From contig NZ_NBYK01000001.1 of the NCBI RefSeq assembly GCF_002197985.1, positions 615,840 through 679,839 of the forward strand: a DNA stretch of 64,000 nucleotides, given 5' to 3'. The DNA is from Halopseudomonas aestusnigri. GTDB lineage: Bacteria > Pseudomonadota > Gammaproteobacteria > Pseudomonadales > Pseudomonadaceae. A program made the translations under genes and the position numbers. The notes under the pieces are model-generated. The model made no database searches, was not told where the DNA came from, and saw only the letters and a list, made by a program, of their open reading frames with translations. This document shows, piece after piece, positions 26 through 29,112 of this stretch (positions are counted from its first letter, which is position 1; each line of letters starts with the position of its first letter).

Positions 26-415
26 CTACCCGAGCGGACTTTGCACACCGGCAAAGGCATTACCAAGGACATGGGTATAAATCTGCGTAGTACGCACATC
101 AGCATGCCCCAGCAGCGGCAACCCCGTCGGTATCCGTGCAGGCGGCTTCGCCCGAGTGGCACCGCTATCGCCCACCAGCGCGTTGAACGGCTGATTCTGC
201 GTGACAGCAACCACATGGCGAATGACCGTCAGCCAACCAGAAAGCTCGCTGACCTCCGCGTGCCCTATCTCCAGAGGGTGGCGTTTCCGGTGGTAGCGCA
301 GGAAATAGCGTATCCACTACCAGCATGTCTTCTCGGTGCGAATGCTGTAGTGACTCACCCTGGCGACGTTACGAAACTGTGCCCACAGGCGTGGCTTGGC
401 TTGTATGGCACTCAT
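26..415 (-). pseudogene. intI: integron integrase intI, decayed (internal deletion and in-frame stop)
   Basis: Reading leftward from the ATG at 415, the translation begins MSAIQAKPRLWAQFRN and continues with HYSIRTEK and RKRHPLEIG. These match the N-terminal SAM-like domain of integron integrases. A TAG codon at 319-317 interrupts it at residue 33. After about residue 75 (TQNQPFNALV) the frame jumps to LLGHADVRTTQIYTHVL and ends QSPLG, the family's C-terminal catalytic segment with the GH and nucleophile-Tyr motifs. About 190 residues of the usual ~320 are missing, including the first catalytic Arg region, so the product should be inactive. The two halves remain in one frame. Its orientation, divergent from the cassettes, is the normal integron layout. 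Confidence 0.88.
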
Positions 416-559: not shown

Positions 560-620
560 TTGTTATGAAGAAGTCATTGATATGCAATGACGAAGCCGTC
601 GGTCTACTCAACTGTTAGGT
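560..620 (+). other. attI: attI recombination site
   Basis: The sequence aactgttaggt ending at 620 contains the GTTAGGY crossover (G614/T615) at the junction between the intI side and the first cassette. attI sites are not strongly structured, so the left boundary is approximate. The site is assigned mainly from position and the core heptamer. Confidence 0.55.
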
Positions 621-627
621 GTTCGCA

Positions 628-891
628 GTGAGCAAATTCAAGTTTCAGCCACGATGGAAAGAAGAACTTGTTGTAACAGGTGACGGAGGCCAATTTATCC
701 TTGAGCTTCCAATGGGAATTCTTTCTGCATATTTACCAACTGAGGAAGCTTGGAAATCAAAATCTCCTGATTGGGCGCGTAATCAGTATTCAGATTTGAA
801 GCAAGAACTCGAAGAATGGTGCAGAGAAAATAAAGCGAAATTCTATATCGATGAAACAGCAGGTGTAGGCATTGAGGGAAAATGGTCATAG
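628..891 (+). CDS. integron cassette 1: hypothetical protein, 87 aa
   Basis: A small soluble protein beginning MSKFKFQPRWKEELVV if the GTG at 628 is the start. The GTG at 619 would add three residues but sits inside the attI core. The bases taggtg at 616-621 would serve as a weak ribosome site for 628. The protein is acidic in its second half, with EELVV, ELPMGI and a Trp-rich stretch around SPDWARNQYS. There is no membrane segment or signal peptide. I do not recognise the family. It is in the first, best-expressed cassette position and ends eight bases before attC1. Confidence 0.6.
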   Translation: MSKFKFQPRWKEELVVTGDGGQFILELPMGILSAYLPTEEAWKSKSPDWARNQYSDLKQELEEWCRENKAKFYIDETAGVGIEGKWS

Positions 892-898
892 TCATCAC

Positions 899-972
899 AC
901 CTAACAAGTCAATTAACTTCGCGCCTGCGGCGCCGGACGCGCTAACGCGCGCCGGTTATTGAGGCGTTAGGC
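899..972 (+). repeat. attC: attC site 1
   Basis: R'' is ACCTAAC at 899-905 and R' is GTTAGGC at 966-972. Between them, caagtcaattaac pairs imperfectly with ggttattgaggcg (L''/L') around a GC-rich middle. The length is 74 bases. Crossover is predicted between G966 and T967. Confidence 0.85.
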
Positions 973-987
973 GCATAGGAGGATTGG

Positions 988-1662
988 GTGCCAAGACTGA
1001 AAGAAATCTGTGAAAACCTCAGCACTCATTCGAAGATGCTCGCGCAATCCTCAGAGGATAAATGGTCGGATAGTTCGTCTCCAGTAGATGAACCGGTGCG
1101 GAGGATCCTTCTTAGAGGTTCAGAAATCATTCGGGGAGCTATCGATCTCGGCTTGACAGAGAACCCGACAGCATTGGCCATCTTATCTCGGCAATTACTG
1201 GAGCTGTTTATCTCGCTCCATTGGGTGATATCGGATCCAGAACGGGCGGAAAGGTACGCGGAGTTTTCTACAAATGAACTCGATAGGCTTGCCCAGATGA
1301 CCATGAAAGACGGATTGCTCTCCGTCAAGTCAAAAGAAGATGGCACGGATGTCACCAATGATTTCCTATCAACTAGAAGCAAACCGAGAAAAGGGGTTTC
1401 GGTTGAGCAGCAAGCCCGTGAGTCTGGAATTTTACATCTGTATAAGATTTTCTACAGGTTTATGTCATTGGAAACGCACGGGAAGTCTGAAACAGTCGTT
1501 AATCCAACCGAACGTTCCGAGGTGACACTGGTGCACCTTCAAACGATAGGTGCGATATCACAAGTTTTTGGACATACGGCGATTTTATGGCTTCTTCACC
1601 GCCAGAAGATAACCAATGAGAAAATACGCGAACTCCTGGGGCTGAATAATGAGGTCGCCTAA
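988..1662 (+). CDS. integron cassette 2: helical protein with HEPN-like R-x6-H motif (DUF5677-like)
   Basis: A 224-residue protein that starts with GTG behind a strong taggagg ribosome site at 977-983. It appears all helical, without a signal or membrane segment. The stretch at about residues 60-90 (LSRQLLELFISLHWV, then SDPERAERY) resembles proteins annotated as DUF5677. Near the C-terminus Y-R157-FMSLET-H164-G gives an R-x6-H motif as seen in HEPN ribonucleases, followed by more helix. The stop codon TAA lies inside attC2, so the gene and its recombination site are tightly packed. The family assignment is from memory of motif pattern. RNase activity is an inference. Confidence 0.65.
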   Translation: MPRLKEICENLSTHSKMLAQSSEDKWSDSSSPVDEPVRRILLRGSEIIRGAIDLGLTENPTALAILSRQLLELFISLHWVISDPERAERYAEFSTNELDRLAQMTMKDGLLSVKSKEDGTDVTNDFLSTRSKPRKGVSVEQQARESGILHLYKIFYRFMSLETHGKSETVVNPTERSEVTLVHLQTIGAISQVFGHTAILWLLHRQKITNEKIRELLGLNNEVA

Positions 1663-1728
1663 CAAGTGTAGGCTGTAGGACAAATTTTCCGCTGCGCTCC
1701 AAATTTGCCGCAGCTACAGGCGTTAGGG
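1657..1728 (+). repeat. attC: attC site 2
   Basis: R'' is GCCTAAC at 1657-1663 and R' is GTTAGGG at 1722-1728. The inner arms tgtaggctgtag and cagctacagg are complementary. The length is 72 bases. R' ends in G instead of the consensus pyrimidine. Confidence 0.82.
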
Positions 1729-1744
1729 GCAAAAGACCGAGATT

Positions 1745-2680
1745 ATGAATAGAAAAGATATGGATGCCCTAGAACAGCATCTCAAGCAATGGAAGCAAAT
1801 ATCTGAGCGACTGCAAGGACAGTTAGGGCCAGTTATGGAAGCTCGAAAGGCGATAGAAAAAACTCTGGGCCCAACACTAGAACTTCAAAAAGCTATTAAA
1901 TCTTCATTAGAGCCCTTTCTAGAACAGCAAATAAAACTGCAGAAAATGTTTGAAGGTATAAATTTACCGAGCTGCCAGCTGCCTGACTTTCGTCCTTATG
2001 CAAAGCAAATCGAACAATACCAAAAAACTCTCAGCGGCATTATTAACCCAGCTTTTGAGGAAATACAACGTTCTTTTTTAGAGTTACCCCCGAGAGTTCA
2101 AGAAGCTCTGTTGCTGCTTGCACAGCACGGATGGTATTTAGATTTCAATATGCCGCTTCCAAGTTTGTGGGAAATAGAAAAGGCAATATCTAGTGGAGAA
2201 ATCGATGAGGTAGAAGAAGCTCTGGTAGAGTATTTTGATAGCCAACTAGATGAAATTGAAAAAGCAATTTCTGCTCAATTCCCTCACAGAGCACATATTA
2301 TTAGCTCTGCAATAAAAGCGCACAGAAGCGCAGAATTTTATTTGTCAATTCCTGTTTTTCTTGCTCAAGCAGACGGGATATGTAAGGAAGTAGTTGGCCA
2401 ATATCTGTTCATGAAAAAAGATAAAAAGCCTAAAACTGCAATTTATGTTGAGCAAATAGCGGCGGACACATACAAGGCGGCATTATTAAGCCCATTAGCT
2501 TCCAGTACTCCAATCGGCTTCTCTGAGCACGAGCGTGAAGAAGATTTCAATCATCTCAATAGACATATGGTATTGCATGGCGAATCATTGGACTATGGAA
2601 GTAGAGTGAATGGTTTAAAAGCACTATCTCTTCTGAATTATGTGTCGCAGGCATTGAAAAAAGATGAAGAATACCCCTAA
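1745..2680 (+). CDS. integron cassette 3: coiled-coil protein with C-terminal HEPN-like domain
   Basis: This 311-residue protein starts at ATG 1745. Residues 1-120 are rich in Q, E, K and L in heptad-like order and probably form a coiled coil. The C-terminal third is helical and contains N272-R273-HMVL-H278-G, a clean R-x4-H HEPN motif with the preceding Asn and following Gly, then DYGSRVNGLKALSLLNYV. HEPN domains of this type are the RNase part of many abortive-infection and toxin-antitoxin proteins. No signal peptide or membrane helix is present. Base composition is clearly AT-richer than the chromosome, as expected for a captured cassette. Function in defence is inferred. Confidence 0.7.
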   Translation: MNRKDMDALEQHLKQWKQISERLQGQLGPVMEARKAIEKTLGPTLELQKAIKSSLEPFLEQQIKLQKMFEGINLPSCQLPDFRPYAKQIEQYQKTLSGIINPAFEEIQRSFLELPPRVQEALLLLAQHGWYLDFNMPLPSLWEIEKAISSGEIDEVEEALVEYFDSQLDEIEKAISAQFPHRAHIISSAIKAHRSAEFYLSIPVFLAQADGICKEVVGQYLFMKKDKKPKTAIYVEQIAADTYKAALLSPLASSTPIGFSEHEREEDFNHLNRHMVLHGESLDYGSRVNGLKALSLLNYVSQALKKDEEYP

Positions 2681-2758
2681 CAAGGCCAGTCAAGGCGACG
2701 TCTTTTTCGTTACGGCTTCGCCTACACTACAAAGCCGCGCGTGCTGGCGGCGTAAAAA
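2675..2758 (+). repeat. attC: attC site 3, degenerate on the right
   Basis: R'' CCCTAAC at 2675-2681 and the inner arms (gccag against ctggc) are preserved. The right core reads GTAAAAA at 2752-2758 where GTTAGGG would be expected. Loss of the second T of GTT should impair recombination at this end. Confidence 0.6.
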
Positions 2759-2782
2759 GGCAGCAGATACATGGAGGTTGGC

Positions 2783-3058
2783 TTGAAAGAGTATTTTGCT
2801 GAAATCTTGTACGTGATAGCAATGTCCAAGAAGACTCAGTGGGCAATTATTCTGGGTATCGTATTCTTCATCGGCATTAGCCTTGTCGGTAGTTACCTTG
2901 CGAGCAATCTTCAGTTCAGCGGTTCGCTCCGAGGGCTTGAAGACGCAGTGGTAGGCAAACTCCTTAAGCGCTACGATAAAGTGGCTCTACTCGCATTAAT
3001 TTCATTCTGGGTGCTGGCTTTCAAGTGCTACCGCCGCGATAAAAACCGCTTTTGGTAG
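2783..3058 (+). CDS. integron cassette 4: small protein with two membrane segments
   Basis: A protein of about 91 residues with hydrophobic helices AIILGIVFFIGISLVGSYLA and VALLALISFWVLAF, separated by about 25 polar residues. It ends in the basic tail CYRRDKNRFW. Two starts are possible. TTG 2783 has ggagg at 2773-2777 with ideal spacing. ATG 2771 overlaps that ribosome site and adds four residues. I prefer TTG 2783. No family is recognised. It follows the HEPN cassette across a defective attC, so the two may now move or be expressed as one unit. Confidence 0.55.
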   Translation: MKEYFAEILYVIAMSKKTQWAIILGIVFFIGISLVGSYLASNLQFSGSLRGLEDAVVGKLLKRYDKVALLALISFWVLAFKCYRRDKNRFW

Positions 3059-3060
3059 CT

Positions 3061-3137
3061 GTCTAACAATGCGCTCAGATCGCTCGCCTCGTTCACAAGA
3101 ACCGGCTAAATCTGGCTCGTTAGCTTAATCGTTAGAG
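3061..3137 (+). repeat. attC: attC site 4
   Basis: R'' is GTCTAAC at 3061-3067 and R' is GTTAGAG at 3131-3137. Inner arms (gcgctcag/ctcgttagc region) pair only loosely. The length is 77 bases. It starts two bases after the cassette 4 stop codon. Confidence 0.75.
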
Positions 3138-3144
3138 ATCTTCC

Positions 3145-3687
3145 ATGTCCCGTGCATACCAAAGTTTTGAATATGGAATTAAAGATGCCGAAGAATTGCT
3201 CGCGCACTTTGATGCAATCAACGTCAATCCTCCGCCGTCCAACGCTGAGGTCCTGAAGCGAGCCGGTCTGGTAATGGCCTTAACCGCTTGGGAAACTTAT
3301 GTCGAAGATAGGCTTTTAGAGGAGATGAATAAAAAGCTTGGCGTGGTCGCCGGAAGCTACGTTGGTGATTTTGTCTTAAAGAAATTACACGCCGACCTTA
3401 AGCAGTTCCATAACCCAAGTTCGGACAAAACGAAACGTATTTTCCAGGAATACCTTGGCCTTGATGTAACTGAGGGATGGTCTTGGGCAAATTACGATCC
3501 TGCAAAGGCGAGAAGCACCTTAAATAGTTGGATAGGTAAGCGCGGAGATGCTGTTCACCGATCAAAGCCTATAAATAACGGAGCTCCAGTAGCGCACCTA
3601 ATCAAGCGTGATGAGCTGGAAAAAGTCATTCGCTTCATCAAAGAGCTTGTAAGATCTACTGACACGTATGTCGATAATAGTCTCTAA
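3145..3687 (+). CDS. integron cassette 5: HEPN-like protein (RiboL-PSP-HEPN type)
   Basis: A 180-residue helical protein starting eight bases after the attC4 core. Residues 40-65 read RAGLVMALTAWETYVEDRLL, the N-terminal helix typical of the RiboL-PSP/MAE_28990 HEPN groups. Near the end, K-R133-GDAV-H138 forms an R-x4-H motif, followed by a last amphipathic helix (ELEKVIRFIKELV). Such proteins are predicted ribonucleases linked to stress and phage defence. No signal peptide or membrane helix is visible. The TAA stop overlaps attC5. Family placement is by motif memory. The biochemical role is inferred. Confidence 0.68.
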   Translation: MSRAYQSFEYGIKDAEELLAHFDAINVNPPPSNAEVLKRAGLVMALTAWETYVEDRLLEEMNKKLGVVAGSYVGDFVLKKLHADLKQFHNPSSDKTKRIFQEYLGLDVTEGWSWANYDPAKARSTLNSWIGKRGDAVHRSKPINNGAPVAHLIKRDELEKVIRFIKELVRSTDTYVDNSL

Positions 3688-3775
3688 CATGGCACTTAAC
3701 CTCGCCCCTTTCGGTCGCTGGACTCGCCAAAGCTGCGCTTTGGCTCGCTGGTTAGCTCAAGGCTAGCTGTTATCC
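3682..3775 (+). repeat. attC: attC site 5 (end of cassette array)
   Basis: R'' is CTCTAAC at 3682-3688 and the terminal core is GTTATCC at 3769-3775. Inner arms cttaacc and ggttag pair, and the centre holds the palindromic gccaaagc/gctttggc. The length is 94 bases. The last three bases of R' deviate, but the GTT is intact. Confidence 0.7.
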
Positions 3776-28914: not shown

Positions 28915-29031
28915 ATGACACACCGTTCCGCCCAGATTGTTGTCGCCAGCGCCCTGCGCGCTGTCGCTGCTGCGCGCGTGGCGGTTGGTTACTTTTATTT
29001 TGGGTATTGGTTTAGCCAAAGGCGCGCCTGA
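28915..29031 (+). CDS. aromatic leader peptide (38 aa) of the DAHP synthase attenuator
   Basis: The 38-codon ORF starts at ATG 28915 with aagg ten bases upstream and ends at TGA 29031. Residues 25-33 are GYFYFGYWF: three Tyr, three Phe and one Trp codon in nine positions. This is the hallmark of leader peptides that let ribosome stalling report charged tRNA levels. A pause hairpin begins within its last codons, and antiterminator and terminator elements follow. Control by Tyr/Phe supply of the downstream DAHP synthase is the expected role. Confidence 0.88.
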   Translation: MTHRSAQIVVASALRAVAAARVAVGYFYFGYWFSQRRA

Positions 29032-29046
29032 TACCCCACAGGCGCC
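29021..29046 (+). promoter_or_regulatory. attenuator pause hairpin (1:2 stem)
   Basis: ggcgcgcctg pairs with caggcgcc across an accc loop, with a small CG bulge. It covers the end of the leader ORF, so a ribosome stalled at the aromatic codons would leave it free while a ribosome reaching the stop would melt it. Confidence 0.6.
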
Positions 29047-29055
29047 CTGAATTGA

Positions 29056-29098
29056 CGGGTCGCCACCAGAGAATCAAGAAACCCCGGTCGGCTACCCG
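29056..29098 (+). promoter_or_regulatory. predicted antiterminator of the aromatic attenuator
   Basis: cgggtcgccacc (29056-29067) can pair with ggtcggctacccg (29086-29098), giving about 11 pairs with a mismatch and a bulge. This pairing consumes the left arm of the terminator, so the two structures exclude each other, which is the logic of attenuation. Confidence 0.6.
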
Positions 29099-29112
29099 AC
29101 CGGGGTTTTTTA
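29080..29112 (+). terminator. attenuator terminator upstream of DAHP synthase
   Basis: aaccccggtcgg-ctac-ccgaccggggtt is a perfect 12-bp stem followed by T6. It lies 49 bases after the leader stop and 170 bases before the DAHP synthase start. Confidence 0.92.

Follow-up and report, generated by a model that had tools for sequence, protein, structure and literature searches.

Putative single-gene HEPN ribonucleases among the cassettes of a decayed integron in Halopseudomonas aestusnigri

The left end of the 64,000-nucleotide stretch of Halopseudomonas aestusnigri DNA analyzed here (hereafter, the window; contig NZ_NBYK01000001.1) carries a decayed chromosomal integron, composed of a relic integrase and five same-strand cassettes at a yigZ-like/alkB-like insertion site. 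We consider it rather probable that this array stores solo, antitoxin-less abortive-infection genes, with cassettes 3 and 5 encoding HEPN ribonucleases (RNases) and cassette 2 possibly encoding a divergent HEPN relative. A previous reading made from the letters alone (the sequence-only reading) had proposed all three proteins as HEPN-like from R-x6-H or R-x4-H motifs near their C-termini. The three open reading frames (ORFs) and the residue pairs R157/H164, R273/H278, and R133/H138, in the order of the list, are all present as claimed.

988 to 1662, plus strand: cassette 2, an ORF of 224 amino acids, DUF5677 (Pfam PF18928, E=1.7e-12, 48.2 bits against a cut-off of 27.1)
1745 to 2680, plus strand: cassette 3, an ORF of 311 amino acids of a family without a curated name (phrog_28904, E=1.6e-35; alignments of 16 and 15 sequences; AlphaFold2 (AF2) model; Foldseek)
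3145 to 3687, plus strand: cassette 5, an ORF of 180 amino acids, RiboL-PSP-HEPN (Pfam PF18735), with R133-G-D-A-V-H138 and the helix-2 residue E50

The motif by itself proved to be at chance level as evidence for HEPN, since R-x4-6-H was found in 41 of the 48 long ORFs elsewhere in the window (within the last 45% in 26 of the 48) and in 57–79% of shuffled versions of the three proteins. These figures demonstrate that a bare R-x4-6-H is unfit for this purpose; the deciding test is conservation across relatives, not occurrence of the motif.

The HEPN membership of cassette 5 is established by its match to the profile PF18735, HEPN_RiboL-PSP (E=2.3e-29, 103.1 bits, cut-off 28.4). The match covers the whole model, and cassette 5 has the R-x4-H motif. 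Among 16 aligned family members, R133 and H138 were the sole invariant columns, so that the motif itself is conserved. Cassette 5 falls in an R-G-D-x-x-H subgroup, whereas the commoner form in the family is R-N-x-x-x-H. Relatives were found in Aeromonas caviae, flanked by transposases (80%); on a Klebsiella IncC plasmid, directly adjoining an integron integrase and with attC-like repeats on both flanks (49%); and on a Vibrio plasmid, directly downstream of MoxR and vWA genes (48%). The second of these, on Klebsiella pneumoniae plasmid NZ_CP102989.1 (locus L029, 2005–4650), is a mobile integron with a 323-amino-acid integrase in a TnAs1 region; its sole visible cassette, the RiboL-PSP-HEPN gene between attC-like repeats, is a candidate for a defence cassette carried by a conjugative plasmid. 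The third, on Vibrio halioticoli plasmid pIAM14596 (locus L030, 1–3537), is a row of bpMoxR, vWA, and RiboL-PSP-HEPN genes, suggesting an HEPN effector within a MoxR-vWA conflict system.

For cassette 3, no family was found in Pfam, NCBIfam, or PADLOC, and its weak Pfam matches, including OAS1_C, were judged to be due to chance. One genome scan yielded 15 relatives, several of them metagenome bins, with a range from Gammaproteobacteria to Kiritimatiellae, Planctomycetota, and Bacteroidetes; further relatives, including phi3T_86, are carried on plasmids and phages. R273, H274, H278, G279, Y284, G285, and N289 are invariant in the 16 sequences formed by the cassette and its 15 relatives, and R273 and H278 remain invariant when the most distant aligned relatives are considered (alignment of 15). 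The R-x4-6-H is therefore conserved, with a polar residue after the arginine (R273-H274-x3-H278). The acidic residue of helix 2 is also present: D210, in helix 198–217, is invariant among the 16 and is D or E in the distant relatives.

The cassette 3 protein is laid out as an N-terminal helical or coiled part (approximately residues 1–112, low confidence) and a C-terminal HEPN-like domain (approximately residues 150–305). The AF2 model contains a helix at 180–194, the D210 helix at 198–217, a long insert, a short helix at 273–277 that ends at the motif, and a helix at 287–303, and this topology agrees with the published HEPN layout (PMC3710099). The top match in a Foldseek search of BFVD was a viral “DUF4209 domain-containing protein” (E=2.5e-8, probability 1.00); DUF4209 was assigned to HEPN, and found in restriction operons, in 2013 (PMC3710099). 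Cassette 3 shares with the DUF4209/C6orf70 HEPN family (PF13910) an R-[NH]-x3-H-G motif and, in register, the helix 1–2 pattern, but differs by His in place of Asn after the Arg and by an N-terminal region of its own. Chains of Csm6 and AbiV, both HEPN proteins, were among the best, non-significant, PDB fold matches. In the sequence searches of PDB, the matches of the cassette 3 profile were only coiled-coil look-alikes, obtained via its N-terminus. The invariant RHx3HG, the position of D210 in the predicted helix 2, the position of the motif, and the DUF4209 fold match together make the assignment of cassette 3 to HEPN well supported, and we regard the protein as representing an HEPN-type family probably allied to DUF4209.

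The cassette 3 gene also travels as a cassette in other bacteria, judging from the attC sites at the stop codons of its relatives: a well-paired attC lies exactly at the stop codon in two of them (L037 and L038; control rate approximately 5%), and an attC-like sequence was seen there by eye in four others (L033, L034, L036, and L039). In another array, the cassette next after a cassette 3 relative (L011, 658–1422, minus strand; L034, 3710–4471) encodes a 254-amino-acid protein with FLGITCEEEAA and NRRNQAIYA, which appears AbiV-like by eye only and matches none of the libraries. In Bacillus phage phi3T, the HEPN-domain relative phi3T_86 (locus L019, 3878–4591) lies three genes from the arbitrium receptor gene aimR and is possibly a prophage-borne defence gene.

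Cassette 2 is a member of DUF5677 (PF18928), for which we found no published function and which is unmentioned in the HEPN survey (PMC3710099). In an alignment of 13 members, E72, Y156, and H164 are invariant and R68 is nearly so. R157 and H164 had been proposed as the catalytic pair; H164 is conserved family-wide, whereas R157 is common only to the two nearest relatives and not to DUF5677 at large. Cassette 2 thus has no conserved R-x4-6-H, and the proposed pair is unsupported. No usable relatives were found in viral contigs, so that the protein was modeled by AF2 from the single sequence. This poor model, with a mean predicted local distance difference test (pLDDT) score of 59, has helices at 34–53, 60–82 (bearing R68 and E72), 139–166 (with H164 at its end, after an insert), and 173–206, a layout that would suit HEPN. 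The chance that cassette 2 belongs to HEPN is about even. In Shewanella putrefaciens plasmid pSA70-2 (locus L031, 3986–7090), a DUF5677 gene lies directly upstream of a PifA-like gene (PADLOC E=1e-83).

The helical character proposed for the proteins was borne out by the models of cassettes 2 and 3, and similarity between the three families was undetectable by profile comparison, in agreement with their description as unrelated. The assignment to HEPN held for cassette 5 by its profile and for cassette 3 by conservation and fold match, and remained even for cassette 2. Structure prediction, which had been recommended as a check, placed the motif of cassette 3 where a short helix preceding helix 4 ends, whereas for cassette 2 the model was of low confidence and the fold search uninformative. 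No antitoxin family was found in cassettes 1–5 in any library, in agreement with the lack of obvious antitoxins noted previously, and the adjacent antitoxin of a type II or VII system was not found.

In the reading that we prefer, each protein would dimerize, and the R-x4-H pairs of the two subunits would form a metal-independent RNase site, in which the acidic residue of helix 2 (E50 in cassette 5, D210 in cassette 3) would assist catalysis. Healthy cells would need no antitoxin to keep the enzyme silent. For cassette 3, comparison with the single-gene HEPN system Tha suggests that the long, helical N-terminal part may sense a product of infection. Upon phage entry, cellular and phage RNA would be cut and translation would stop, and the infected cell would be lost before phage release.

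The surroundings of relatives outside integrons are consistent with a role in defence. The cassette 3 type lies between a type IIG restriction-modification (RM) enzyme and Dsr2 in one locus (L042), adjoins a type ISP RM enzyme in another (L039), and adjoins HsdS in a third (L012); the cassette 2 type stands directly before PifA (L031), and the cassette 5 type directly after bpMoxR and vWA (L030). These neighbors, together with published work on integrons, support the proposal that the array may be a defence island.

Several results weigh against this interpretation. The defence-gene neighbors of relatives were counted without a matched control, and PADLOC gave a match for none of the cassettes. 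The HMM-HMM (hidden Markov model) comparisons that had been suggested as a check did not favor the assignment: profile-profile comparisons among the three cassette families were non-significant, although the motif or helix 1–2 aligned in register, and that of cassette 3 with DUF4209 was in register but weak and non-significant. Cassette 3 is therefore not filed under DUF4209, the Pfam model of which was matched neither by cassette 3 (E<=1) nor by its relatives (E<=0.1). The AF2 model of cassette 3 is of modest quality (mean pLDDT 63, with the best values at 160–215 and 280–300), and Foldseek found no significant match to it in PDB (best E=1.6). Cassette 2 lacks the conserved helix-3 Arg, and its Foldseek matches, generic helical bundles, were discarded as uninformative. 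Sequence searches of PDB with the proteins and profiles of the cassettes likewise did not find a significant HEPN match. Finally, no promoter-like site was found upstream of any cassette; because the integrase is also dead, the array may be barely expressed.

The other features of the array are as follows.

29 to 115, minus strand: C-terminal remnant of the integrase gene intI, profile positions 285–313 (TIGR02249, E=1.3e-8); the frame reads LGHADVRTTQIYTHVLGNAFAGVQSPLG
173 to 382, minus strand: N-terminal remnant of intI, profile positions 3–72, with one in-frame TAG (TIGR02249, E=2.7e-10)
614 to 620, plus strand: GTTAGGT core, the presumed attI/cassette 1 junction, from its sequence and its position between the intI relic and the first cassette
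619 to 891, plus strand: cassette 1, an ORF of 90 amino acids, with relatives on Paraburkholderia plasmids (45%)
899 to 972, plus strand: attC1 (ACCTAAC...GTTAGGC), a bottom-strand hairpin with 15 arm pairs
1657 to 1728, plus strand: attC2 (GCCTAAC...GTTAGGG), overlapping the cassette 2 stop codon
2675 to 2757, plus strand: attC3, degenerate at its right end (CGTAAAA) and a homologue of the attC behind the same cassette in other bacteria
2771 to 3058, plus strand: cassette 4, a hydrophobic ORF of 95 amino acids, with a relative (61%) on a replicon of Vibrio alginolyticus
3061 to 3137, plus strand: attC4 (GTCTAAC...GTTAGAG), with canonical paired arms
3682 to 3775, plus strand: attC5, an imperfect terminal attC (CTCTAAC...GTTATCC) at the right end of the array, from its sequence and from the congener array L104, which ends at the same flank
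3808/3809, no strand: right junction with the chromosome, from comparison with a congener (G389), in which L103 8766/8768 joins L009 3870/7809 (window position 1 is L009 position 4001)

An attC lies between the cassettes, with canonical paired arms after cassettes 1, 2, and 4 and degenerate after cassettes 3 and 5. The arms were scored by a script, with a background of approximately 5% of control ORFs, since an attC covariance model did not find consensus pairs; a simple attC scan across whole loci was too noisy to use. The five ORFs (619–891, 988–1662, 1745–2680, 2771–3058, and 3145–3687) lie on one strand and all are intact. No intact intI was found at the array: according to the TIGR02249 profile and the reading frame, the bulk of the catalytic domain has been deleted between the two remnants. 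A working sedentary integron is thus not present. In the congener G389, the left yigZ-like and right alkB-like genes are adjacent and the insert is absent, and therefore the whole block was inserted, from a point approximately 130 bases beyond the left edge of the window up to 3808. In a second congener (G384, locus L104), the end of an array persists at this right flank; the last ORF of that array (2320–2616), with NRHGITH...DYG, resembles the motif region of cassette 3 and is possibly a truncated second member of that family. The sole other integron integrase of the genome (G000:C1:137710-138519; L105 5695-6553), next to purL, carries a TAG stop and adjoins a run of N. Since the intI relic has no catalytic core, the sister species has an empty site, and the other intI is broken by a stop, the cassettes are probably frozen in place.

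Cassette 4, located between two HEPN cassettes, is a small protein with two likely membrane helices; it has relatives on Vibrio and Alteromonas replicons. Elsewhere in the window, the Pseudomonas small RNA P15 (Rfam RF00627) is found at 28989–29106, in keeping with a host that belongs to Pseudomonas or its vicinity.

This state of the array raises the question of whether the cassettes are decaying passengers, that is, a fossil array without an integrase or a recognizable promoter, the genes of which are no longer used. The deletion relic of intI, the degenerate attC3 and attC5, the failure to find promoter-like sites near the cassette starts, and the sister species without the insert are in line with this view. 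However, all five ORFs are intact, the catalytic residues are kept in cassettes 3 and 5, and the cassettes could have promoters of their own; we regard decay as unlikely.

We find it improbable that the array holds effectors parted from their sensors. Under this view, the trigger in relatives would be a MoxR-vWA pair for the cassette 5 type and a PifA-type NTPase for the cassette 2 type, and the genes here would be inert, decoys, or partnered elsewhere in the genome. MoxR-vWA systems are NTP (nucleoside triphosphate)-dependent conflict systems with interchangeable effectors (PMC7159879), and the relatives directly downstream of bpMoxR and vWA on the Vibrio plasmid and directly upstream of PifA on the Shewanella plasmid would fit such an arrangement. 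Each pairing, however, is represented by a single example, and most of the relatives seen are solo genes. The cassette 5 type stands alone beside the mobile integron integrase on the Klebsiella plasmid, suggesting selection for the solo form.

Less probable still is that these are stress-response or addiction genes, with integron HEPN RNases causing dormancy or stabilizing the array, as toxin cassettes do for integron arrays, rather than acting against phage. A role of this kind was put forward in 2013 for the HEPN cassettes of integrons (PMC3710099), but the neighbors of relatives are anti-phage rather than stress genes, and an antitoxin partner was not found in the libraries, so that addiction is hard to explain.

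Retaining the interpretation of the array as a store of solo abortive-infection genes, we offer a further, tentative proposal, to which we give somewhat less than even credence: the cassette 3 family would be an undescribed single-gene, antitoxin-free, phage-sensing RNase, spreading between unrelated bacteria in the form of an integron cassette and carried also in restriction/Dsr2 defence islands and SPbeta-like phages. In this proposal, the family is phrog_28904-like and of the DUF4209 type of HEPN, its long helical N-terminus would be a sensor, and integrons would concentrate one-gene suicide RNases because such genes fit a one-gene cassette. The term “undescribed”, which the sequence-only reading had applied to all three nucleases, is appropriate for the cassette 3 family only, since names already exist for the HEPN family of cassette 5 and for the DUF of cassette 2. 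A 2013 survey predicted that the HEPN genes carried by integron cassettes encode RNases (PMC3710099), and integrons were shown to be stores of anti-phage cassettes in 2025 by Darracq, Kieffer, and Getz (reviewed in PMC12409362). HEPN proteins in integrons and integron defence stores are therefore already published, and what is new here is the cassette 3 family and the conservation evidence at the residue level. Our study adds to the HEPN RNases, which probably guard bacteria against phage, a compact family of proteins that lacks a curated name, its catalytic residues pinned by conservation, and provides candidates, including the Klebsiella plasmid HEPN cassette beside an integrase, for studying how antitoxin-less RNases stay silent in integrons.

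The array resembles these integron defence stores of 2025 in its small single-gene cassettes, its chromosomal integron, and its likely anti-phage role. In contrast, those stores were phage-tested, while the present one is a small array with a relic integrase and a predicted role. The integron cassette protein of the PDB 3jrt family (PMC3710099) is likewise an HEPN-type protein encoded by an integron cassette, although sequence searches with our cassettes or their alignments did not retrieve 3jrt. The closest functional parallel to cassette 3 that we considered is Tha, a single-gene system of a Staphylococcus aureus prophage, which has 301 amino acids, an unresolved N-terminus, and a C-terminal HEPN domain with R265NSIMH270, is activated by tail proteins, and loses defence upon the H270A substitution (PMC11087260). 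Tha was ruled out as a homologue of cassette 3, as sequence similarity (Tha-1/Tha-2) was not found and the two belong to different PHROG families, and was retained as a functional analogue. The two proteins are alike in length (301 and 311 amino acids), an unresolved N-terminal half, a C-terminal HEPN domain, an R-x4-H near residue 270, and their single-gene organization, and by this analogy cassette 3 may work like Tha.

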